This document shows, one piece after another, positions 5,349 through 48,817 of a DNA stretch of 64,000 nt. The DNA lies in NCBI RefSeq assembly GCF_900103785.1, contig NZ_FNHE01000005.1, positions 233,688 through 297,687 on the forward strand. The letters are read 5' to 3'. Under the pieces are notes generated by a model. That model was not told where the DNA came from, did no database searches, and was given only the letters and a program-made list of their open reading frames with translations. The stretch's first letter is position 1; each line of letters starts with the position of its first letter. The stretch is from Geodermatophilus siccatus (GTDB taxonomy: Bacteria; Actinomycetota; Actinomycetes; Mycobacteriales; Geodermatophilaceae). The translations under genes and the position numbers were made by a program.

Positions 5349-6011
5349 ATGATGCCGACCGACCCGAACCACCAGAGCCCGATGCCGCCCTGGCAGGCCA
5401 CGCAGACCATGCAGCTACCGCTCCAGCCGCCCGCCGAGCAATCAGCCGGCAAGCGGCGGAGGTGGCTGCTGTGGGTGATCCCTCTGGTGGCCTTCCTGTT
5501 CGGCATCGGCGTCGGTGGGGCGAGCAACGGGGCCGACGTGACCACCACGCCGCAGTACCAGTCGCTGCAGGCGGAGCTGGACACCGCGCAGGACGAGGCC
5601 GGTGAGCTCAGCGACGAGGTGGCCGACGCCCAGGAGCGGGTGCGGCAGGCGGCCGCGGCGGCGCAGGCGCAGGTCGAGCAGCAGGACGCGGCGATCGGCG
5701 AGCGCACCACGGCGCTCGACCGGCGGGAGCAGGAACTCGCCGCGCGGGAGAGCGCCCTGCGCGCGGCCGAGCAGGCGGCCAGCAGCAGGAGCAGCGGCTC
5801 GTCGTCCGGCTCGTCGTCCTCGTCCTCCGGGTCGGTGTCGTCCGGCGCCGGCACCGCGTCGGTCGTCGAGCCCGAGCCGCAGGTCTCGGCCAGCGCCTCC
5901 TACGCCAACTGCTCCCAGGCGCGGGCCGCCGGCGCGGCTCCCGTCCGCGTCGGCGACCCTGGCTACGGCCGCCACCTCGACCGTGACGGTGACGGGGTCG
6001 GCTGCGAGTAG
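5349..6011 (+). CDS. Membrane-anchored excalibur calcium-binding domain protein
   Basis: 220 residues. A proline/glutamine-rich cytoplasmic N terminus is followed by KRRR and a single membrane span (about 38-58, WLLWVIPLVAFLFGIGVGG). Next come a coiled-coil stretch of about 80 residues, a Ser/Gly linker (about 142-165) and a C-terminal excalibur domain with the YANCSQARAAGAAPV opening and the DRDGDGVGCE calcium loop. The paired cysteines probably form a disulphide outside the cell. Start ATG 5349 follows cgggggac. It ends at a strong hairpin facing the next, convergent gene. Confidence 0.88.
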   Translation: MMPTDPNHQSPMPPWQATQTMQLPLQPPAEQSAGKRRRWLLWVIPLVAFLFGIGVGGASNGADVTTTPQYQSLQAELDTAQDEAGELSDEVADAQERVRQAAAAAQAQVEQQDAAIGERTTALDRREQELAARESALRAAEQAASSRSSGSSSGSSSSSSGSVSSGAGTASVVEPEPQVSASASYANCSQARAAGAAPVRVGDPGYGRHLDRDGDGVGCE

Positions 6012-9408: not shown

Positions 9409-11289
9409 CTACGACCTGCGGGCGCCGTCCAGCGCGGCGGTGAGGAACCCCAGGATCGTGCGGATCAGCCGCTTGCGGGAGTGCGCCCGGCGGTAGTCGT
9501 GGCCCTCACCGGGCAGCTCCAGGTACTCGACCGGCCGGTCGAGCGCCCGCAGCGCCGCCACGATCTGGTGCGCCTCGCCGATCGGCACGTTGGTGTCGTG
9601 CTCGCCGTGCACCACCAGCAGCGGGACGTCGATGAGGTTGGCCGAGGCCAGCGGTGAGATGTCCTCGAGCAGCGCGCGGTCGCGCTCGGGGTGGCCGTAC
9701 TTGGACACCGCCGCCGCGGCGATCCACGGCTCGCTGTCCCGGTAGAAGGTCACCAGGTCCGACATGCCGCAGACGTCCACGCCGGCGGCGAACACCCCCG
9801 GCGAGAAGGCCAGGGAGGCCAGCGTCAGGTAACCGCCGTAGGAGCGGCCGGTCACCGCGATCCGGTCCGGGTCGGCGACCCCGGCGGCGACGAGGTGGTC
9901 GGCCGCGGCGAGGACGTCGGCGAACGCCGCGTAGCGCCCGGTGAGGTCGTCGGCGTGCACGAACTCCCGCCCGAAGCCGGACGAGCCGCGGATGTTCGGT
10001 GCGAACACCGTGATGCCGGCGGCGGCCAGGGCCTGGTGCTGCGGCGCGAAGACCGGTCGCTCCTGCGCCTCCGGGCCGCCGTGCAGGTAGATCGCCACCG
10101 GCCCGGGCTCCTTGAGGTGACCCGGCGCCCGGTACAGCCAGCCGGTCAGCGGCAGCCCGTCACGCCCGGGGAAGGTCTCCAGCCGGGGGACGACGAGCCG
10201 CTGCCGGGGGAGGGGCGGCGCGGAGGTGACCCGGGTCCAGGCGTGCGTCGTGGTGTCCAGGTGCCACAGCTCCCGCGGGCGGGTGGGCCCCTGCACGCCG
10301 AGCACCACGCTGGAGCCGTCGCGGCTGAGGACCGGGTCGGCGGCGACCAGCCCGGGCAGCCCGGTGATCGGGGTGCGCCCACCCGTGGCGGTGTCCATCA
10401 GCTCCAGCTCGCTGCGGCCGGCGACGTTCCACACCAGCAGCAGCAGCCGGCCGGCGTCGTCGGCGTCGACGAACTCCAGCTCGGCGTCGTCGCGGGCGGC
10501 GAGGGTCCGCGGCTCGCCGCGCCAGCCGTTGGGGCCGAACGGGACGCCGATGAGCTGCCGGCGGGGCAGCCCCACGTCGGAGGCGAGGTACACGTAGACC
10601 GGCCCGGAGTGGTCCTCGGGCGCCGGGCGGATCAGCGCGACGTCGGTGGAGCCGGTCGCGCCGTGCGGCAGCACGCTGAGGGCCTCGTCGGTGAGCCGGT
10701 CGACGACGACGACGAACTGCTGCCCGCGCGAGCCGTCGCGGACGACGATGAAGCGCTCCTCCAGCGACACGTCCAGCACGTGGATCAGCTCGCCCTCGGC
10801 CAGCGGGTCGAGCCGGCCGGTCGCCGGATCGGCGAGGTAGCAGCACGTCGGCGCGCCCTCCGTCGCGCCCGGGAAGGTGACGACGAAGCGGTGCCCGCTG
10901 CGCGTCCAGGGCCCCAGCTCGGCGTGGGTCTCGGCGTCCCCGGCGACCCGGCGGGCGTCGGAGCCGTCCGGCCGCACCACCCACACCGCGGTCCGGACGC
11001 CGCCGTCGGTGGCCACCTCGACGGTCAGCCAGCCGCTGTCGGCGGCCCACCGCACCTTGGTCACCGGGTCGTCGGAGAGCTTGATGTGCCGCGCCGCGGG
11101 CTGCTGCCCGTCCAGCACGATGTCCTGGATGTAGACCTGCGGGACGCCGGAGCGGTCGCTGATGAACGCGGACCGCGCGGCGTCGGGGGTCATGTTGGGG
11201 CCCCAGCTGCCCCAGGCGTCGACCAGCGCGTCGCCCAGCGCGGCCGCCGTCTCCACCTGTGCCGGGGCCGCGGCCAGCTCCGTCGTCAC
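9409..11289 (-). CDS. Prolyl oligopeptidase family (S9) serine peptidase
   Basis: 626 residues. An N-terminal beta-propeller-like region (repeated VYLASD, LLLVWN, VLGVQG strands) precedes an alpha/beta-hydrolase catalytic domain. The nucleophile serine is in GRSYGGYL (about residue 483); the acid is in VHGEHDTNVP and the histidine in PGEGHDYRRAHS. HGGPEAQ forms the oxyanion segment. No signal peptide, so probably cytoplasmic; family members cleave short peptides. Start GTG 11289 has ggagga about 10 bases upstream and overlaps a short upstream frame by GTGA. Confidence 0.9.
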   Translation of the reverse strand: MTTELAAAPAQVETAAALGDALVDAWGSWGPNMTPDAARSAFISDRSGVPQVYIQDIVLDGQQPAARHIKLSDDPVTKVRWAADSGWLTVEVATDGGVRTAVWVVRPDGSDARRVAGDAETHAELGPWTRSGHRFVVTFPGATEGAPTCCYLADPATGRLDPLAEGELIHVLDVSLEERFIVVRDGSRGQQFVVVVDRLTDEALSVLPHGATGSTDVALIRPAPEDHSGPVYVYLASDVGLPRRQLIGVPFGPNGWRGEPRTLAARDDAELEFVDADDAGRLLLLVWNVAGRSELELMDTATGGRTPITGLPGLVAADPVLSRDGSSVVLGVQGPTRPRELWHLDTTTHAWTRVTSAPPLPRQRLVVPRLETFPGRDGLPLTGWLYRAPGHLKEPGPVAIYLHGGPEAQERPVFAPQHQALAAAGITVFAPNIRGSSGFGREFVHADDLTGRYAAFADVLAAADHLVAAGVADPDRIAVTGRSYGGYLTLASLAFSPGVFAAGVDVCGMSDLVTFYRDSEPWIAAAAVSKYGHPERDRALLEDISPLASANLIDVPLLVVHGEHDTNVPIGEAHQIVAALRALDRPVEYLELPGEGHDYRRAHSRKRLIRTILGFLTAALDGARRS

Positions 11290-40178: not shown

Positions 40179-42323
40179 ATGACCGCGCCGACGCCGCACC
40201 CGCACGACGACGGGCTGCAGGCGCTGCTGCGGCCGCGCGGGATCGCGCTGCTCGGCATCTCCGGCCGGCCGGAGAACATCATGTCCCGGCCCCTGCGCTA
40301 CCTGGTCGAGCACGGCTACGAGGGTGGCCTCTACCCGGTCAACCCGAACCACTCCGAGCTCGTGGGCCGGCGCTGCTACCCGACGCTGGCCGAGGTCCCC
40401 GGCCCGGTCGACCTGGTGCTCGTGCTCGTCGCCGCCGACCGGGTCGAGGACGCGATCCGGCAGGCCGCCGCGGTCGGCGCGAGGGCAGCGGTCGTCTACG
40501 CCTCCGGCTTCGCCGAGGTCGGCCCCGAGGGGGTGGCGCTGCAGCAGCGGCTGGCCGCGGTGGCGCGGGAGACCGGCGTCCGCGTCGTCGGGCCGAACTG
40601 CCAGGGCTTCCTCTACGCGCCCACCGGCGTGGTGGCCACCTTCACCGCCGCCGCCGACCGGCCGCTGACCTCCGGCAGCGGCGTGGCCTACGTCGGGCAG
40701 AGCGGTGCGGTCGGCGGCTCGGTGCTCGACCTCGCCACCGACATGGGGCTGGGCCTGGCGGCGTGGTTCAGCACCGGCAACCAGGCCGACCTCGACCTGA
40801 CCGAGGTCTCGCTGCACCTGCTGGCCGACCCGACGGTGCGGGTGCTGATGCTCTACGTCGAGGCCACCGGCGACGGCGCGGCCTACGCCGAGCTGGCCCG
40901 CCGCGCGCAGGAGGCCGGCAAGCACCTGGTCGTGCTGCGCTCGGGGCGCTCCAGTGCCGGGCGTCGCGCGGTGGCCAGCCACACCGGCTCGATGCTCGGT
41001 GACGACGTCGCCTTCGTGCTCACCTCCCGGCGGTACGGCGTGGTGCTGGTCGACGACATCGACGAGCTGCTCGCCGTCGCCGCGGTGCTGGCCGCCGGGA
41101 AGCCGGCGGAGGGGTCGCGGGTCGCCGTCGTCACCACCTCCGGCGGAGCCGGCAGCCTGGCCGCCGACCAGTGCGCGGACGTCGGCCTGCAGCTGCCCGA
41201 GCTCTCGGCGGCGACCCAGGCGCGGCTGCGCCCGCTGATCCCGCCGTTCGGCGCGCTGGCCAACCCGGTCGACGTCACCGCGCAGCTGTTCAACCGGGGC
41301 GCGCACGCCTTCGGCGACGTCTGCCGGATCATCGCCGAGGACGACGCGGTGGACGTCGTCGCGGTCCTCGTGACCATGGTCGTCGGCGACGCCGGCGCCC
41401 GGCTGGCCGAGGACCTCGTCGCCACGGCCGCCAAGCTGCCCTGCCCCCTGCTGGTCGGCTGGATCGCCGGCCAGGAGCTGACGGTCGAGGGCCGCCGGGT
41501 GCTCCGCGAGGCCGCAATCCCGGTGTTCGGCTCGGTCGGCGACCTGGCCCGGGTCGCCGCGCGGCTGGCCCCGCCGCGGCACCGCGGCACCCCGCCGCCG
41601 CTGCCGCCGGTGCCCGAGGTCCCGGCCGCGGAGGTGCGCGCGCTGGTCGCGGCCCCGGTGGTGGACGGCGCGGCGCTGCTGCGGGCGATCGGCATCGCGC
41701 AGCCGTCGTCCACGCTGGTGACCACGCCCGAGGCAGCCCGCGCGGCGGTCGCGGCGCTGCCCGGCCCGGGCGTGCTCAAGCTGGCCGCCGTCGACCTGGC
41801 GCACAAGAGCGAGGTCGGCGGGGTGCGGGTGGGCGTCGGTCCCGACGAGGCCACCACCGTCTTCACCGAGCTGCTGGACGCCGCGCGGGCGCACCACGTC
41901 CCCGGCGTCGAGGGCGTGCTCGTGCAGGAGCTCGTCCCGCCGGGCACCGAGCTGGTCCTCGCGGTCACCGCGGGGCGCGACGGGTTCCCGCCCGTGGTGA
42001 CCGTCGGGCTCGGCGGGGTGACCACCGAGCTCTACCGCGACCTCGCCTCGGCGCTGGCGCCGGTGACGCCGGAGGAGGCGTGGGCGATGCTGCGCAGCCT
42101 GCGCGCCTGGCCGCTGCTGGCCGGCTTCCGCGGCGCCGAGCCCGCCGACGTGCCGGCCGCGGTCGACGCCGTCGTCCGGCTGTCGCAGGCCGCGCTGGCC
42201 GCGGGCGACCGGCTCGCCGAGTTCGAGGTCAACCCGCTCGTCGTCGCGCCGCGCGGGCGGGGCGCCACCGCCGTCGACGTCCTGGTCCGCACCACCGGCT
42301 CGCGGGAGCCGGTGGGCGAGTAG
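40179..42323 (+). CDS. NDP-forming acyl-CoA synthetase (fused alpha/beta)
   Basis: 714 residues. CoA-binding domain (ALLGISGRPENIMSRPLRYL; PVNPNHSELVGRRCYPTL), two succinyl-CoA-ligase-like domains with the phospho-histidine loop ASHTGSMLGDD, and a C-terminal ATP-grasp part (GVLKLAAVDLAHKSEVGGV, FEVNPLVV). Such enzymes link acyl-CoA with acid plus ATP/ADP. ATG 40179 opens the operon. It ends in TAG, which matters because TAG is recoded in the fifth gene. Confidence 0.92.
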   Translation: MTAPTPHPHDDGLQALLRPRGIALLGISGRPENIMSRPLRYLVEHGYEGGLYPVNPNHSELVGRRCYPTLAEVPGPVDLVLVLVAADRVEDAIRQAAAVGARAAVVYASGFAEVGPEGVALQQRLAAVARETGVRVVGPNCQGFLYAPTGVVATFTAAADRPLTSGSGVAYVGQSGAVGGSVLDLATDMGLGLAAWFSTGNQADLDLTEVSLHLLADPTVRVLMLYVEATGDGAAYAELARRAQEAGKHLVVLRSGRSSAGRRAVASHTGSMLGDDVAFVLTSRRYGVVLVDDIDELLAVAAVLAAGKPAEGSRVAVVTTSGGAGSLAADQCADVGLQLPELSAATQARLRPLIPPFGALANPVDVTAQLFNRGAHAFGDVCRIIAEDDAVDVVAVLVTMVVGDAGARLAEDLVATAAKLPCPLLVGWIAGQELTVEGRRVLREAAIPVFGSVGDLARVAARLAPPRHRGTPPPLPPVPEVPAAEVRALVAAPVVDGAALLRAIGIAQPSSTLVTTPEAARAAVAALPGPGVLKLAAVDLAHKSEVGGVRVGVGPDEATTVFTELLDAARAHHVPGVEGVLVQELVPPGTELVLAVTAGRDGFPPVVTVGLGGVTTELYRDLASALAPVTPEEAWAMLRSLRAWPLLAGFRGAEPADVPAAVDAVVRLSQAALAAGDRLAEFEVNPLVVAPRGRGATAVDVLVRTTGSREPVGE

Positions 42324-42374: not shown

Positions 42375-43112
42375 GTGGGACAGATCCAGTTGGAGCGGCA
42401 CGGCGGCGTCGCCGTGTTCACGGTCGACTCGCCCGAGGTCAAGAACGGGCTCACCCCGGAGATGGGGCTGCAGCTGTCGGAGCTGTGCGACGAGGTGGAC
42501 GCCGACCCGGCGATCGGCGCGGCCGTCGTCCGCGGGGCCGGGGGCACGTTCTGCTCGGGCGCCGACCGCCGGCGCTGGACGCCGGGCAGCGACCAGGCCG
42601 AGGACAAGACGTACAAGGAGCTCGGCGCGGTCTACACCGCCTTCCGCCGCGTGGGCACGCTGCAGGTGCCGACGATCGCCGCCGTCCGCGGCGCCGCCGT
42701 CGGCGCGGGGATCAACCTGGCGCTCTCCACCGACCTGCGCATCGTGTCCGAGAGCGCCCGGCTGCTGGCCGGCTTCCTGCGCATTGGCCTGCACCCCGGC
42801 GGCGGCTACTTCACCATCAGCAGCCGGACGGCGGGCCGCGAGGCCACCGCCGCGATGGGCCTGTTCAGCGAGGAGATCGACGGCGTGCGCGCCGCGGAGA
42901 TCGGCCTGGCCTGGAAGGCGGTGCCCGACGACCAGGTCGAGGACCTCGCCCTCGAGCTCGCCGGCCGCGCGGCCAAGGACCCGGAGCTGGCCCGGGAGGC
43001 GGTCCGCTCCTTCCGCACCGAGGCCGGCCCGCCCGGGATCGGCTGGGAGGCCGCCCTGCACTTCGAGCGGGCCACTCAGATGTGGTCCCAGCGGCGGCGC
43101 GAGACCGCCTGA
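42375..43112 (+). CDS. Enoyl-CoA hydratase/isomerase family protein
   Basis: 245 residues with the crotonase fold: GGTFCSGADRRRW (oxyanion hole 1), AAVRGAAVGAGINLALSTDLRI (oxyanion hole 2). The segment AGFLRIGLHPGGGYFTIS replaces the usual two catalytic glutamates, so ordinary hydration is doubtful. The protein may be an isomerase, hydrolase or decarboxylase variant. GTG 42375 follows gaggcaggac. Confidence 0.87.
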   Translation: MGQIQLERHGGVAVFTVDSPEVKNGLTPEMGLQLSELCDEVDADPAIGAAVVRGAGGTFCSGADRRRWTPGSDQAEDKTYKELGAVYTAFRRVGTLQVPTIAAVRGAAVGAGINLALSTDLRIVSESARLLAGFLRIGLHPGGGYFTISSRTAGREATAAMGLFSEEIDGVRAAEIGLAWKAVPDDQVEDLALELAGRAAKDPELAREAVRSFRTEAGPPGIGWEAALHFERATQMWSQRRRETA

Positions 43113-43176
43113 CCCGACCCCCCGCCGGGCCGGCGACGGCGCCGGCCCGGCGGGGTCCACCTTCAGGAGGGATGCC

Positions 43177-44310
43177 GTGCAGTTCGCCCCCACCGCGCTC
43201 AGCCCCGCCGAGGAGGCGCTGCGCGCCGAGGTGCGCGAGTTCCTGGCCGCCGAGCTGCCGCCCGACCACCGCCCGGCGCTCGGCTTCGCCGGCCGGCACG
43301 ACCCGGAGTTCTCCCGCACGCTGGCCGAGCGCGGCTGGGTCGGCATGGCGATCCCGCAGGAGTACGGCGGGCACGGGCGCAGCGCCGTCGACCGGTTCGT
43401 CGTCGCCGAGGAGCTGCTGGCCGCCGGGGCGCCGATCGGGGCGCACTTCGTCGCCGACCGGCAGACCGCGCCGGCGCTGCTGCACTTCGGCACCGAGGAG
43501 CAGCGGCGGCGGTTCCTGCCCGGCATCGCGGCGGGGGAGGTCTACTTCTCCCTCGGCATGAGCGAGCCCGACTCCGGGTCCGACCTCGCCTCGGTGCGCA
43601 CCCGCGCCACCCGGGTCGAGGGCGGCTGGACGGTCACCGGCACCAAGGTGTGGACCAGCGAGGCGCACCGCAACCACTTCTTCGCCGTCCTGTGCCGGAC
43701 CTCGCCGATGGAGGAGGGCCGCAAGCACGCCGGCCTGTCCCAGCTGGTCGTCGACCTGTCCGCGCCGGGCGTGCGCATCTCGCCGATCCCGTACCTCGAC
43801 GGCAGCCACCACTTCAACGAGGTGGCGCTGGAGGAGGTGTTCGTCCCCGACGACATGGTGCTCGGCGAGCTGGGCAGCGGCTGGCAGCAGGTGACCAGCG
43901 AGCTGGCCTACGAGCGCAGCGGCCCCGACCGCTGGCTGTCGACCTTCCCGGTGCTGCGCGAGTGGCTGCGCGAGCGCCCCGGGGTGACCGATGACGAGGC
44001 CGCGGTCCTCGGCCGGCTGGCCGGCCGAGCCCGCGCCATCCGGCACCTGTCGCTGTCGGTCGCCCGCGCGCTCGACGCCGGGGCGGCGCCGGCGGTCGAG
44101 GCCGCGCTGGTCAAGGAGGTCGGCACCCGCTTCGAGCAGGACCTGGTCGAGGCGCTGCGGGAGGCCGCCGGGACCGAGCTCGACCAGGGCTCCGGCTCGC
44201 TGTTCTGCTCGCTGCTCGCCGAGGCGGTGCTGACCTCGCCGTCGTACACGCTGCGCGGCGGCACCACCGAGGTCCTCCGCTCCGTCGCCGCGAAGGGACT
44301 GGCCGCATGA
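43177..44310 (+). CDS. Acyl-CoA dehydrogenase
   Basis: 377 residues from GTG 43177 (caggaggg upstream). Helical N domain (VREFLAAELPPDHRP, GWVGMAIPQEYGGHGRS), FAD-binding strand FSLGMSEPDSGSDLASVRT with WTVTGTKVWTSEAHR, and a C domain ending SYTLRGGTTEVLRSVAAK. It shares a 4-base ATGA overlap with the next acyl-CoA dehydrogenase gene; the two subunits likely form a heteromer, as in several actinobacterial pairs. Confidence 0.93.
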   Translation: MQFAPTALSPAEEALRAEVREFLAAELPPDHRPALGFAGRHDPEFSRTLAERGWVGMAIPQEYGGHGRSAVDRFVVAEELLAAGAPIGAHFVADRQTAPALLHFGTEEQRRRFLPGIAAGEVYFSLGMSEPDSGSDLASVRTRATRVEGGWTVTGTKVWTSEAHRNHFFAVLCRTSPMEEGRKHAGLSQLVVDLSAPGVRISPIPYLDGSHHFNEVALEEVFVPDDMVLGELGSGWQQVTSELAYERSGPDRWLSTFPVLREWLRERPGVTDDEAAVLGRLAGRARAIRHLSLSVARALDAGAAPAVEAALVKEVGTRFEQDLVEALREAAGTELDQGSGSLFCSLLAEAVLTSPSYTLRGGTTEVLRSVAAKGLAA

Positions 44311-45371
44311 GCGACGACCGGCAGATGCTCACCGAGGTCGCGACCGGCCTGTTCCGCGACCTGTGCACGCCCGAGGACGTCGTCGCCGCGGAGGCGACCG
44401 GCTGGAGCGAGCGGCTCTGGGACGCGTTGGCCGGGTCCGGCTTCCCGACGGTGTCGGTGCCCGAGGCGGCCGGCGGCTCCGGCGGGGACGTCGCCGACGC
44501 CTGCGCGCTGCTGACCGTGGCCGGCCGGTTCGCCGCCCCGGTGCCGCTGGCCGAGACCGGGCTGCTCGCCGGCTGGGCGCTGGCCGCGGCCGGGCTCGAG
44601 CTGCCCGAGGGCCCGCTGTCGGTGGCGGTCGGCCGGCCCGGGGACACCGTCCGGCTCACCGGACGGCGCCTCACCGCGCGGCTGTCCCGCGTGCCGTGGG
44701 GCGGGCGCAGCACCCGGGTGGTCGCCGTCGCCGAGAGCGGCGGGCAGCGGTTCGTCGTCTCGGCGCCCACCGCCGCGGCGACCGTCACGCCCGGCCGCAA
44801 CCTCGCCGCCGAGCCGCGCGACACCCTCGTGTGGGACGACGTCGAGCTGCCCGAGGACGCGGTGGCGCCCGCGCCGGACGGCGTGGACCCCGCGGCGCTG
44901 CGGCTGCGCGGGGCGCTGGCCCGCTCGGCGCAGATCGCCGGCGCGCTGGCCCGCGTGACCGAGCTGAGCGTGCGCTACACCGGCGAGCGCCAGCAGTTCG
45001 GCCGGCCGATCGCCCGCTTCCAGGCGGTGCAGGCGCACCTGGTGACGATCGCGGAGGAGGCCCAGCTGGCCGGGCTGGCCGCGCAGGTCGCCGCGCTGAA
45101 CGCCCGGCCGGACCCCTCGTTCGACGACGTCGCCGCGGCCAAGGCGGCGGCCGGCGAGGCGGCGACGGTCGCCGCCCGGGCCGCCCACCAGGCGCACGGG
45201 GCGATCGGCATGACCAAGGAGTACGAGCTCGGGCAGCTCACCCGGCGGCTGTGGTCGTGGCGCGACGAGTTCGGCGGCGAGCGGTGCTGGAGCCGGGAGC
45301 TGGGCCGCCGGCTGGCCGCCGAGGGCGCCGACGCGCTGTGGCCGCGGATCTCGACGGGGCTACTGGCGTGA
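44307..45371 (+). CDS. Acyl-CoA dehydrogenase, divergent partner subunit
   Basis: 354 residues. Shorter and more degenerate than its neighbour: GSGFPTVSVPEAAGGSGGD in the N domain, VRYTGERQQFGRPIARFQAVQ and HQAHGAIGMTKEYELGQLTRRLW in the C domain. The middle strand lacks the usual SEP motif. ATGA overlap upstream and GTGA overlap downstream join it to the acyl-CoA dehydrogenase and to the selenoflavoprotein. Confidence 0.92.
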   Translation: MSDDRQMLTEVATGLFRDLCTPEDVVAAEATGWSERLWDALAGSGFPTVSVPEAAGGSGGDVADACALLTVAGRFAAPVPLAETGLLAGWALAAAGLELPEGPLSVAVGRPGDTVRLTGRRLTARLSRVPWGGRSTRVVAVAESGGQRFVVSAPTAAATVTPGRNLAAEPRDTLVWDDVELPEDAVAPAPDGVDPAALRLRGALARSAQIAGALARVTELSVRYTGERQQFGRPIARFQAVQAHLVTIAEEAQLAGLAAQVAALNARPDPSFDDVAAAKAAAGEAATVAARAAHQAHGAIGMTKEYELGQLTRRLWSWRDEFGGERCWSRELGRRLAAEGADALWPRISTGLLA

Positions 45372-46783
45372 GCACCGACTGGGACGTCGCCGTCGTCGGC
45401 GCGGGCACCGCGGGCCTGGCCGCCGCCCGGGTGGCCGCGGAGCGCGGGCTGCGCGTCGTGGCCTACGAGCGGATGAGCCCCGGCGGGCAGCTGGTGAACC
45501 TGACCGTGCTGCACGACCACCCCGGCGGGACCGGTCCCGAGCTGGTGTCAGCGCTGACCGCAGCGGCCGAGGGCGCCGGTGTCCGTCTGTCGTGTGCCGA
45601 GGTCACCCGCGTGCACCCCGGTACACCGGCCCGGCTGGAGACCGCCGACGGCGAGGTCGCCGCCGGCGCGGTCGTGATCGCGGCGGGGCTGTCCGCCGGG
45701 CGGCTCGGGCTGCCGGGGGAGGAGGCGCTCGTCGGCCGGGGGATCTCGACCTGCGCCGGCTGCGACGGGCCACTGTTCCGCGGCCGCCCGGTCGCCGTGG
45801 TCGGCGACGACGAGTGGACGGCGGAGGAGGCGCTCGAGTTGGCCGGCTACGCGTCGGCGGTGACCGTGCTGGTGCCGGGGGAGCCGCGGTGGTCCGCGGC
45901 GCGCGCGGCGCGGCTGGCGGCCGACGAGCGGGTCGAGGTGGTGACCGGCGCGGCGGTGACCGCCCTGCGCGGCGAGGGCGTGCTGTCGGGGGTCGTCGTC
46001 CGCACCGCCGACGGCGAGCGCGAGCTGGCGGTCGCGGGGGTCTTCCCGTTCGTCAACCGGCGCGGTCCGGAGGGCCTGGTGGCGGGGCTGGCCGCCGACG
46101 CCGACGGCCGGCTGGTCCCGGAGGACGGCGTCCTCGTGGCCGGCGACGCGCGCGCCGGGGCGGAGCAGTCGCTGACTGCCGCCGAGGCCGACGGTCGGGC
46201 CGCCGGCGAGGCCGCGGTCGCGGCACTGGCGGCGGGCGCGGGGTCGCTGCGCGTCGTGGACCCGACGTACGGCGTGCTGCCGGAGGACGACGCCGGGCCG
46301 GTGGAGGCCACCGGCAGCACGGCGACGTGGCGCGACGTCGCGCTGTTCACCAACTCCAAGCCGAACGCGACCGAGCTGCTGCGCGGGCTGGGTGCGCGGC
46401 TGCAGGCGCACTGGGAGCTGCCGGAGCTGGGCTTCGCGGCCAAGGACAGCGCCTCGGTCCCGGCCGACCCGGACCAGATCGACTGGCTGTCGCAGCGCTT
46501 CAAGATGGTGCTGGTGGCGGTCGGCGACTAGGGCTCGTGCTCGTCGTGGAGTCTCCACGACTCGGTGGAACTGGAGCGGCGCGGCGTCGTGGCACCCCTG
46601 GTGGTGACCGAGACGTTCCTGCCGCTGGTGCAGGCGCAGGCCCGGGCGCGCCGGGTGCAGCCGCGCCTCCTGGTGGTGCCGCACCCGGTGGGCGGGCTGA
46701 ACGAGGCGGAGCTGGCCGGGCGGATCGAGGGCGCGGCAGCCGAGCTGCTGCGGATGGCCGACGAGGCGAGGGGTCTGTCGTGA
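45368..46783 (+). CDS. Thioredoxin-reductase-like flavoprotein fused to a UGSC selenoprotein domain; Sec encoded by UAG
   Basis: 471 residues if TAG 46529-46531 is read as selenocysteine (residue 388). Residues 1-295: FAD motif VVGAGTAGLAAA, SPGGQLVNL, and the redox pair STCAGCDG (Cys129/Cys132) of thioredoxin reductases; the NADPH loop is degenerate (VVGDDEWTAEEA). From about 298 a UGSC domain follows: DPTYGVLP, LFTNSKPNATELL, VLVAVGD, then [Sec]GSC, WSLHDSVELERRGVVAPLV and TETF. In UGSC proteins that position is a TGA; here it is TAG. The frame continues 84 codons with clear homology and its stop overlaps the next GTG by 4 bases. If TAG ended translation, the protein would lose half of its second domain. 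A Sec/Cys pair near a CxxC suggests a selenium electron relay; the substrate is unknown. Confidence 0.85.
46543..46561 (+). promoter_or_regulatory. SECIS-like stem-loop after the UAG codon
   Basis: Arms 46543-46550 (gtcgtgga) and 46554-46561 (tccacgac) are perfectly complementary; the apical triloop is gtc, so the tip reads gagtctc, with a GUCU like that in the E. coli fdhF SECIS loop. The stem starts 11 bases after the TAG, within the coding region, as in bacterial SECIS elements read by SelB. Function inferred from position and shape. Confidence 0.6.
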
Positions 46784-47820
46784 GCGCCGTGGTGGACCTG
46801 CCGGGGGTCACCGAGGAGAGCTGGCAGGAGGAGGCGTACCGCCGCGGCTGGGGCGACGGCCTGCCGCTGGTGGCCCCGACGCCGGCCCGGGTGGCGGCCG
46901 CCCTCGCCGCGCTCCACGGCATCGACCTGGAGCTGGGACCGTTGCCGCCGTCCGGGCTGGTGCCGACCCGCGAGAGCTTCGCCGCCAACGCGGTGATGGC
47001 CGGCTGCCGGCCGGCGGACCTGCCGGTGGTGCTCGCCGCCGTCCGCGCGCTGCAGGCCCCCGAGTACAACCTGCACGGCGTGCTGGCCACCACGCACCCC
47101 TGCGCGCCGATGGTCGTCGTGAACGGCCCGGTGCGCGCGGAGCTGGGCATCAACTCCGGCGGCAACTGCCTGGGCCAGGGCACCCGGGCCAACGCGGTCA
47201 TCGGCCGGGCGGTGCAGCTGGTCGCCACGCACGTGGGCGGGGCGCGGCCGGGCGTCATGGACCGGGCGACCCAGGGCGGGCCGGCGAAGTACACCTTCTG
47301 CTTCGGCGAGAACGAGGAGGAGAGCCCCTTCCCGCCGTTCTCGGTGCGCCGCGGCTTCGCGCCGGGGCAGTCGGTGGTGACGGTCGCGGCGACCGAGGGG
47401 CCGCACAACGTCAACGACCACGGCGGGACGACGGCCGAGGACCTGCTGCTCACCATCGCCGGGACCATGGCCCAGCCGGGGTCGAACAACGTGTACGTGA
47501 AGGGCCCGCACTTCCTGGTGCTGGGTCCGGAGCACGCGGCGACCTTCGCCCGCGACGGGTGGACGGCGGACGCGGTCCGCGACGCGCTCTGGGAGCGGGC
47601 ACGGATCCCGGTGTCGAGGGTGTCGGAGGCCAACCAGCGGCAGTTCGAGGACTGGGGCGTGGTGCCCGACGGCGACGCGTACACGGTGAGCACCGGCCCG
47701 GAGATGCTGCACGTGCTCGTGGCCGGGGGAGCGGGGAAGCACTCGGCGTGGATCCCGTCGTTCGGGGCGACGGCGGCGGTGTCGCGCGCCGTGCCCTCCC
47801 GCCCCGTGGACCGTGCCTGA
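46780..47820 (+). CDS. Protein of unknown function, UGSC-operon paralogue A
   Basis: 346 residues from GTG 46780, overlapping the selenoprotein stop by 4 bases. No family recognised. Seen: RRGWGDGLPLVAPTPARV, MAGCRPADLPVVLAAVRAL, NLHGVLATTHPCAPMVVVNG, GINSGGNCLGQGTRANAV and GPAKYTFCFGENEEESPF. Several cysteines (in THPC, GGNC, FCFG) lie in conserved-looking blocks. No signal peptide or membrane segment. Aligns by eye along most of its length with the next gene, so the two arose by duplication. Confidence 0.8.
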   Translation: MSAVVDLPGVTEESWQEEAYRRGWGDGLPLVAPTPARVAAALAALHGIDLELGPLPPSGLVPTRESFAANAVMAGCRPADLPVVLAAVRALQAPEYNLHGVLATTHPCAPMVVVNGPVRAELGINSGGNCLGQGTRANAVIGRAVQLVATHVGGARPGVMDRATQGGPAKYTFCFGENEEESPFPPFSVRRGFAPGQSVVTVAATEGPHNVNDHGGTTAEDLLLTIAGTMAQPGSNNVYVKGPHFLVLGPEHAATFARDGWTADAVRDALWERARIPVSRVSEANQRQFEDWGVVPDGDAYTVSTGPEMLHVLVAGGAGKHSAWIPSFGATAAVSRAVPSRPVDRA

Positions 47821-48817
47821 GCGGCCGCTGGTCGAGCCGGACGCCGACCCCGCCGCGGTGGCGGCCGAGCTGCTCGCCGCCGGGCACGGCGACGGGCTGC
47901 CGGTGGTGCTCCCCATCGCCGACCGGCTCGCGGCGATGGTGGACGGCGTCGCCGCGCCGGACGCCGTCCTCGGGCAGGTGCCGCCGCTGTTCGGCGAGCT
48001 GACCGTGCGGGCGGTCGCCTGGTACGCGGTGCTGGCCGGGTGCCGGCCGGCCGAGCTTCCGGTCGTGGTGGCCGCGGTGCGGGCGGCGCTGGAGCCGCGG
48101 TTCAACCTGCTGGGCATCGCGACGACGACCGGGTCGCCCGCGGTGGCGGTGCTAGTGCACGGCCCGGTCGCGGCGTCCCTCGGGCTGACGCCGGCCGGCG
48201 GGCTGGGCCCGGGGTCGCGGGCGAACGCCTGCGTCGGGCGGGCGGTGTCGATGGCCCTGGCCGGCATCGGCGGCGCGCGGGCCGGGCTGACCGACATGGC
48301 GACGATCGGCTGGCCGGGCAAGTACACGTGCTGCACCGCCTCGCTGCCAGGGCCCTTCCCACCTCCGGCGGACGGTGACGCGGTGACCGTCGTCGGGGCG
48401 AGCGGGGTGCTCGAGGTGCTGCCGGCGTCGGGCTACCGGACGCCGGCCGAGGTCCTCGCGCCGGCCGCCGCGGCCCTGGCAGGGGTCGCGCTGGCCGCCG
48501 GCGACCCGGGCTGCTCCCGCGACGGCGAGCCGTTCCTGCTGCTGCCACCGGAGCCGGCCGGGTTCCTGCGCGGCCACGGGTGGGGCCCGGAGGAGGTGTC
48601 CGGGTTCCTGTTCGCGGAGGGCAACGCGGTGCTCGCCGCAGGGGCCGCGCGGCTGGCCGGGGTGTCGTCCGCCTACGGGCCCGGTGACCTGCGGGTGGCG
48701 GCCTCGGCCGACGACGTCCGGGTCGTGGTCACCGGCGGGCCCGGGGTGAAGGCGGCGGTGCTGCCGACGTGGGCGGGCGGCACCCGCTCGGTCACCGCCG
48801 CCGTCCGCCCGCTCTGA
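47813..48817 (+). CDS. Protein of unknown function, UGSC-operon paralogue B
   Basis: 334 residues from GTG 47813, overlapping its paralogue by 8 bases. Matching blocks: GHGDGLPVVLPIADRL, LAGCRPAELPVVVAAVRAA, NLLGIATTTGSPAVAVLVHG, GPGSRANACVGRAVSMALA and WPGKYTCCTASLPGPFPPP. The THPC and GGNC cysteines of paralogue A are missing, but a CC pair replaces FCFG. The two may form a heteromer that works with the selenoflavoprotein. Last gene of the operon. Confidence 0.8.
   Translation: MPERPLVEPDADPAAVAAELLAAGHGDGLPVVLPIADRLAAMVDGVAAPDAVLGQVPPLFGELTVRAVAWYAVLAGCRPAELPVVVAAVRAALEPRFNLLGIATTTGSPAVAVLVHGPVAASLGLTPAGGLGPGSRANACVGRAVSMALAGIGGARAGLTDMATIGWPGKYTCCTASLPGPFPPPADGDAVTVVGASGVLEVLPASGYRTPAEVLAPAAAALAGVALAAGDPGCSRDGEPFLLLPPEPAGFLRGHGWGPEEVSGFLFAEGNAVLAAGAARLAGVSSAYGPGDLRVAASADDVRVVVTGGPGVKAAVLPTWAGGTRSVTAAVRPL

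Follow-up and report, generated by a model that had tools for sequence, protein, structure and literature searches.

Selenocysteine (Sec) insertion programmed by UAG is in print for the Geodermatophilaceae, with a Sec tRNA (tRNA-Sec) bearing a CUA anticodon and with formate dehydrogenase and UGSC-motif proteins as the selenoproteins (passages of PMC5330540, citing Mukai et al., 2016, Angew. Chem.). The same elements, i.e., CUA tRNA-Sec, a UAG Sec site, a formate dehydrogenase and UGSC-motif proteins, recur in the genome (5.2 Mb) of Geodermatophilus siccatus, from which we analyzed a stretch of 64,000 nucleotides (contig NZ_FNHE01000005.1, positions 233,688 to 297,687; hereafter the window). 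The element studied is a gene at 45368–46783 of the window (forward strand, as are all features below unless stated) in which UAG would encode Sec, and which would combine a low-Mr thioredoxin reductase (TrxR)-like flavin adenine dinucleotide (FAD) domain and a UGSC active site in a single chain of 471 residues. UAG-Sec decoding in this family is not new, and a sequence-only reading of the window had cited it in support. The passages of PMC5330540 contain no mention of the TrxR-like fusion, of split UGA-coded relatives or of the partner genes described below.

Within the UGSC family (PF24696; NF041046) the fusion has the same U-G-S-C site and nearly the whole Pfam domain, and differs by the TrxR-like domain in front. 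A protein that likewise joins UGSC to a second domain, Unknown_1, a domain of unknown function, occurs in Global Ocean Sampling data, and domains in UGSC-type fusions have, as a rule, at least one conserved Cys (passages of PMC2398784); our comparison with it was by its published description. We found no report of a TrxR/UGSC fusion in the titles, abstract openings and passages of the open-licence PubMed Central literature. New within the literature searched are the fusion, the loss of both NADPH motifs from the TrxR-like partners, and two conserved partner proteins that match nothing in Pfam or NCBIfam and nothing clearly in the Protein Data Bank. The sequence-only reading had suggested that the architecture may be new; the fusion joins two genes that are adjacent or close in other bacteria, with UGA at the Sec site, and is no isolated oddity.

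The reading frame and its two domains

The frame opens with a GTG at 45368, which overlaps the stop of the preceding gene (45371), and runs for 387 codons to a TAG at 46529–46531, its sole interruption and the codon for residue 388. It then continues for 83 sense codons to a TGA at 46781–46783, which overlaps the GTG of the next gene at 46780. The sequence-only reading had placed the TAG at the Sec site of the UGSC family and had noted the terminal overlap, and both the coordinates and a UGSC profile spanning the TAG agree with it. Its figure of 84 codons beyond the TAG includes the stop. The CAGC motif (residues 129–132; 45752–45763) and Sec388-Gly-Ser-Cys391 lie where it put them, and the computed masses, 38.9 kDa for 387 residues and 47.9 kDa for 471, are close to its estimates of 40 and 50 kDa.

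The TrxR-like FAD domain covers 45368–46228 (approximately residues 1–287), and residues 6–272 matched the pyridine-nucleotide-disulphide oxidoreductase fold in a Pfam scan. The UGSC domain (46259–46780; approximately residues 298–471) begins about where the separate UGSC genes of relatives start (LRVVDPTYG in the fusion, MRIVNPTFG in relatives). Read through the TAG, it matched PF24696 with 126.6 bits (gathering cut-off 25 bits) over residues 296–462 and profile positions 2–168 of 172, with the U-G-S-C site also present; the halves before and after the TAG scored 48.8 and 57 bits on their own. With the UGSC equivalog model NF041046 the fusion scored 103.6 bits, below the cut-off of 125, and the genome's other UGSC gene 146.1 bits. 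Similarly, with the thioredoxin-disulfide reductase model TIGR01292 the fusion scored 162 bits (162.7 when truncated at the TAG), below the cut-off of 343.45. Both the FAD fold and the CxxC pair of low-Mr thioredoxin reductases are present, and the sequence and fold matches of this part were to thioredoxin reductases.

Decoding of the in-frame UAG

The genome contains selD, selA and selB (386, 421 and 277 bits, respectively, all above cut-off), and a tRNA-Sec with a CTA anticodon (64.2 bits; cut-off 47). This is its only strong tRNA-Sec, the second match above cut-off being a serine tRNA. The order is selD, the tRNA, a UAG-containing CMD/AhpD-like gene, and then selA and selB. An in-frame TAG is also carried by the second UGSC gene and by a formate dehydrogenase gene (IENQARI-TAG-HSATV). 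The sequence-only reading had named the absence of Sec machinery, or a tRNA-Sec with a UCA anticodon only, as evidence that would count against it; neither was found. The CMD/AhpD-like gene (L011:7666-8274), which follows the CUA tRNA-Sec immediately and precedes selA, has the context CFY-TAG-TPTH and a hairpin of its own, and is likely, to judge from its sequence, to be a UAG selenoprotein itself.

A predicted bacterial Sec insertion sequence (SECIS) hairpin, GUCGUGGA-GUC-UCCACGAC, lies at 46543–46561, with eight pairs and 11 nt between the UAG and its first base; its status as a SECIS rests on structure and conservation. Across 47 distinct Sec contexts (26 TAG, 21 TGA), 357 of 376 pair cells were standard pairs, three pairs showed changes on both sides, and the loop was GUN in every case. 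By contrast, only 48 of 96 pair cells formed in 12 Cys contexts, none of which had a GUN loop, and sliding the hairpin as a control gave at most 196 pair cells out of 376. These counts omitted sites outside the motif filter, among them eight proteobacterial loci in which U-G-A-C replaces U-G-S-C (L149, L150, L154, L155, L157, L159, L160 and L162). All of these but L160 were folded at the correct site, and each of the seven showed the same hairpin.

An RNA signal would be expected to constrain even third codon positions, and those of codons 389–403 were nearly invariant, with 0.041 differences per site, versus 0.22 in the UGSC codons on either side and 0.35 in the TrxR part. Beyond the hairpin, codons 404–468 evolve as protein-coding sequence under purifying selection: the ratio of non-synonymous to synonymous substitution rates (dN/dS) had a median of 0.39 and was below 0.6 in all 18 comparisons with the window, the median for the TrxR part being 0.33. 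Some observations fit less well with a read-through gene. Of the 21 TGA contexts, 13 could not form the outermost hairpin pair; of the 26 TAG contexts, three could not form the outer two; and dN/dS was higher in the UGSC part before Sec (median 0.57, maximum 1.46).

If the UAG were instead an ordinary stop, the protein would end at residue 387, and a 72-codon frame from a GTG at 46565 to 46783 would be a separate or dead fragment. That frame does exist, and UAG does end other genes in the window: the stops at 6011, 36778 and 42323, and at 9409–9411 on the minus strand, which the sequence-only reading had listed, were each verified. An ordinary stop would, however, split the UGSC domain midway. 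It would also have to be reconciled with the retention of the TAG and the downstream frame in all 19 fusions, the purifying selection beyond the TAG, a SECIS common to the fusion and its UGA relatives, and the matching CUA tRNA-Sec in the genome, and we consider it very improbable. Slightly less probable still is insertion of pyrrolysine, or read-through by an ordinary suppressor. ARAGORN did label the tRNA as tRNA-Pyl, owing to its CTA anticodon, but the same tRNA matches tRNA-Sec above cut-off and is sited between selD and selA. Moreover, the UGSC site was TAG, TGA or Cys in 59 distinct contexts (the filter admitted these three only). The pyrrolysine reading was rejected with PylS at 24.4 bits (cut-off 178) and PylD at 20.6 bits (cut-off 150), both below cut-off.

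The frame at 45368–46783 is thus almost certainly, on this sequence evidence, one gene in which UAG is decoded as Sec. SelB would deliver the CUA-anticodon Sec-tRNA to the UAG at 46529, steered by the hairpin behind the codon, and UAGs without such a hairpin would remain stops, as knowledge of the family suggests and the sequences support.

Origin of the fusion and of its Sec codon

Alignment across the family, which the sequence-only reading had proposed for comparing TAG with TGA, gave a clear division. The site was TAG in all 19 orthologous fusions (the window and 18 others), every one of which is from Geodermatophilaceae and ends in TGA, and it was TGA in all 30 loci from outside the family (L136–L162 and L165–L167). 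The 18 came from 20 places in the family that were fetched as possible fusions and that, with the window, were the only UGSC matches of the family to be tested for fusion individually; L082 and L092 proved on inspection not to be fusions, and one of the 18, L084, matches only from residue 27 onward. A search of 397 genomes of the order, with four candidates scored per genome, listed 14 full-length fusions, and one of 394 genomes of the class, a set overlapping the first, listed two; all were in Geodermatophilaceae. A scan of named genomes gave 15 Geodermatophilaceae fusions, with relatives in Alphaproteobacteria, Alicyclobacillus and other Actinomycetota; G. obscurus DSM 43162 has an orthologous fusion (L125).

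Of the 30 loci outside the family, 15 yielded a TrxR-like gene, always separate and with its own stop. In several of them a ribosome-binding-like sequence comes immediately after this stop and leads into the ATG of the UGSC gene (MRIVNPTFG); in L166, the TrxR-like gene lies behind the UGSC and N7-like genes instead. Genome G335 has separate, UGA-coded TrxR-like and UGSC genes and, in a block on the other strand, counterparts of the enzymes upstream of the fusion: the ligase (53%), the hydratase (74%) and the dehydrogenases (67% for one, and 52% for the portion of the other that precedes the end of the locus).

A tree was built from 63 UGSC rows, the tool warning of long branches that meet, and in it the seven fused rows formed one group (96/89). 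Together with 22 of the 23 TGA rows, among which it was nested, this group made up a set of 29 (97/88). The other 21 UAG rows stood apart from this set and required four label changes on the tree. Because the UGSC site is UGA in all 30 loci outside the family and the TrxR-like gene, where present there, is separate, these sequences indicate that a Geodermatophilaceae lineage fused two neighboring genes and replaced UGA by UAG.

A tRNA-Sec was detected in 108 of 112 Geodermatophilaceae genomes (110 matches). The anticodon was CTA at 23 and TCA at eight of the 31 loci checked, the TCA cases being three genera (g5, g6 and g7) and one extra copy in genome G058. Because the checked genomes of g5, g6 and g7 (L044–L049 and L052) carry UCA tRNA-Sec, the switch from UCA to CUA probably happened within the family. 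G058, of the same genus as the window, has two tRNA-Sec genes (L043 and L106), one CUA and one UCA (81.8 bits), the latter with transposase-like genes, judged by eye, on the same contig. It is possible from these sequences that G058 uses two Sec codons.

Redox centers, partner genes and possible role

Only four Cys/Sec columns, C129, C132, U388 and C391, were invariant in the 19 fusions, which fits a relay from FAD through CxxC to Sec/Cys. In the proposed mechanism, FAD, the C129–C132 pair and a selenenyl-sulfide pair of Sec388 and Cys391 would most likely exchange electrons, and the last of these would in turn exchange them with a substrate that the partner proteins N7 and N8 help to bind. 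The sequence-only reading had compared this relay with animal thioredoxin reductase. The invariant residues suit that idea, but an NADPH-driven version is doubtful, as both NADPH motifs are absent. Animal high-Mr selenium thioredoxin reductases have a C-terminal Gly-Cys-Sec-Gly, a tail absent from the fusion, in which 83 residues follow the UAG. The likeness is one of working only, i.e., flavin, disulfide and Sec in each chain, and the flavoprotein class and Sec site are different.

The NADPH motifs of low-Mr thioredoxin reductases are GGGxxA and HRRxxxR, which in the window read GDDEWTA and VPGEPRWS. Neither was kept in any of 34 TrxR-like partners (19 fused, 15 separate), and Trp occupied the GGGxxA site in all 34 (W150 in the window); among seven ordinary thioredoxin reductases used as controls, GGGxxA was present in seven and HRRxxxR in five. 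The FAD fold and CxxC are thus shared with low-Mr thioredoxin reductases (TIGR01292) and with their fusions such as AhpF, but the NADPH motifs are missing here and the attached partner is UGSC. A TrxR-like enzyme unable to use NADPH has been described, the ferredoxin-dependent flavin thioredoxin reductase (FFTR; passages of PMC12796991); for our protein non-use of NADPH is a prediction, and a Sec domain is attached.

With both motifs gone, the redox partner on the far side is probably a protein or another carrier rather than NADPH. As one tentative proposal, the fusion would be a selenoflavoenzyme that works without NAD(P)H and that, with N7 and N8, depends on Se for redox chemistry or bond cleavage during the breakdown of a CoA-activated compound. 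Several points tell against the favored relay and the predicted non-use of NADPH. The full HRRxxxR was missing from two of the seven ordinary controls, an enzyme without the motifs might still use NADPH, and the AF2 model of the fusion was mediocre (predicted local distance difference test, pLDDT, 72.2; predicted TM-score, pTM, 0.43), too poor to judge contact between the redox centers. A self-contained selenium thioredoxin reductase, still using NADPH or NADH through an altered site, would accord with those two controls, with the thioredoxin reductase matches in sequence and fold, and with a PF00070 match at residues 142–212 (25.5 bits; cut-off 22). It has to contend with 34 of 34 partners lacking both motifs and having Trp in the site, and we regard it as possible though rather unlikely. 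Similarly speculative is a TrxR-like half that oxidizes, as FAD-dependent dithiol oxidases of the DepH kind do, passing dithiol or selenolthiol electrons to oxygen or another acceptor.

The glycine/betaine reductase selenoprotein GrdB (PF07355) has U-G followed by E-L-E-R-x-G in the same register. The UGSC profile aligned in register with 12 actinobacterial GrdB C-termini, although weakly (probability 1.85, P 0.027), which is a hint only. The Pfam scan gave no GRDB match, but the Pfam model stops before the Sec site, and a pattern search of twelve short PF07355 fragments for UGSC-like relatives yielded nothing useful.

The gene for the UGSC partner protein N7 (46780–47820) follows the fusion directly, and that for its paralogue N8 (37% identity) lies at 47813–48817. 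An N7-like gene stood beside 29 of 30 UGSC loci in the family (L013–L042, the exception being L023) and in all 30 loci outside it; the partner family spans several phyla. N7 has two nearly invariant Cys residues (76 and 174). For the 41 members of the N7/N8 family, neither Pfam nor NCBIfam gave a credible match (best E 0.011 and 0.0078, respectively), and a confident AF2 model (pLDDT 93.3) gave no clear match in the Protein Data Bank. In one locus of Alicyclobacillus tolerans (L161), we observed two TGA-containing UGSC genes and three N7-like genes, along with paired dehydrogenases resembling those of the window.

Upstream of the fusion lie genes for an ADP-forming acyl-CoA ligase-like protein (40179–42323, with an ordinary TAG stop), an enoyl-CoA hydratase-like protein (42375–43112) and acyl-CoA dehydrogenases 1 (43174–44310, start approximate) and 2 (44307–45371). 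Both dehydrogenases were present in 16 of 18 fusion loci in the family; only two family loci extended as far as the ligase. From this operon context the fusion probably takes part in breaking down an acyl-CoA-activated compound, although this role is a guess because the acyl-CoA enzymes were seen in only part of the loci. L091 shows no dehydrogenase, L073 shows a single one represented by just its first 86 residues, and no match to the upstream enzymes was found in 23 of the 30 loci outside the family. Elsewhere outside the family the enzymes were clear in G335, the Alicyclobacillus dehydrogenases reached 42% and 36%, and matches in five loci were weak (about 28–32%).

Taken as a whole, the explanation that we favor, i.e., a 471-residue UAG selenoprotein with an FAD–CxxC–Sec/Cys relay, arisen by gene fusion and probably acting in acyl-CoA catabolism, appears well founded on sequence. 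Annotation that treats UAG as a stop would split the fusion gene and lose its active site. G335 and the fusion form a natural before-and-after pair, in which the Sec codon was replaced and the SECIS retained. To our knowledge, UGSC proteins have no established function; a flavin partner in the same chain that lacks the NADPH motifs, together with a constant pair of neighbors, would make it testable. If the likeness to GrdB reflects true ancestry, the fusion may represent an aerobic counterpart of glycine-reductase-type selenium chemistry.
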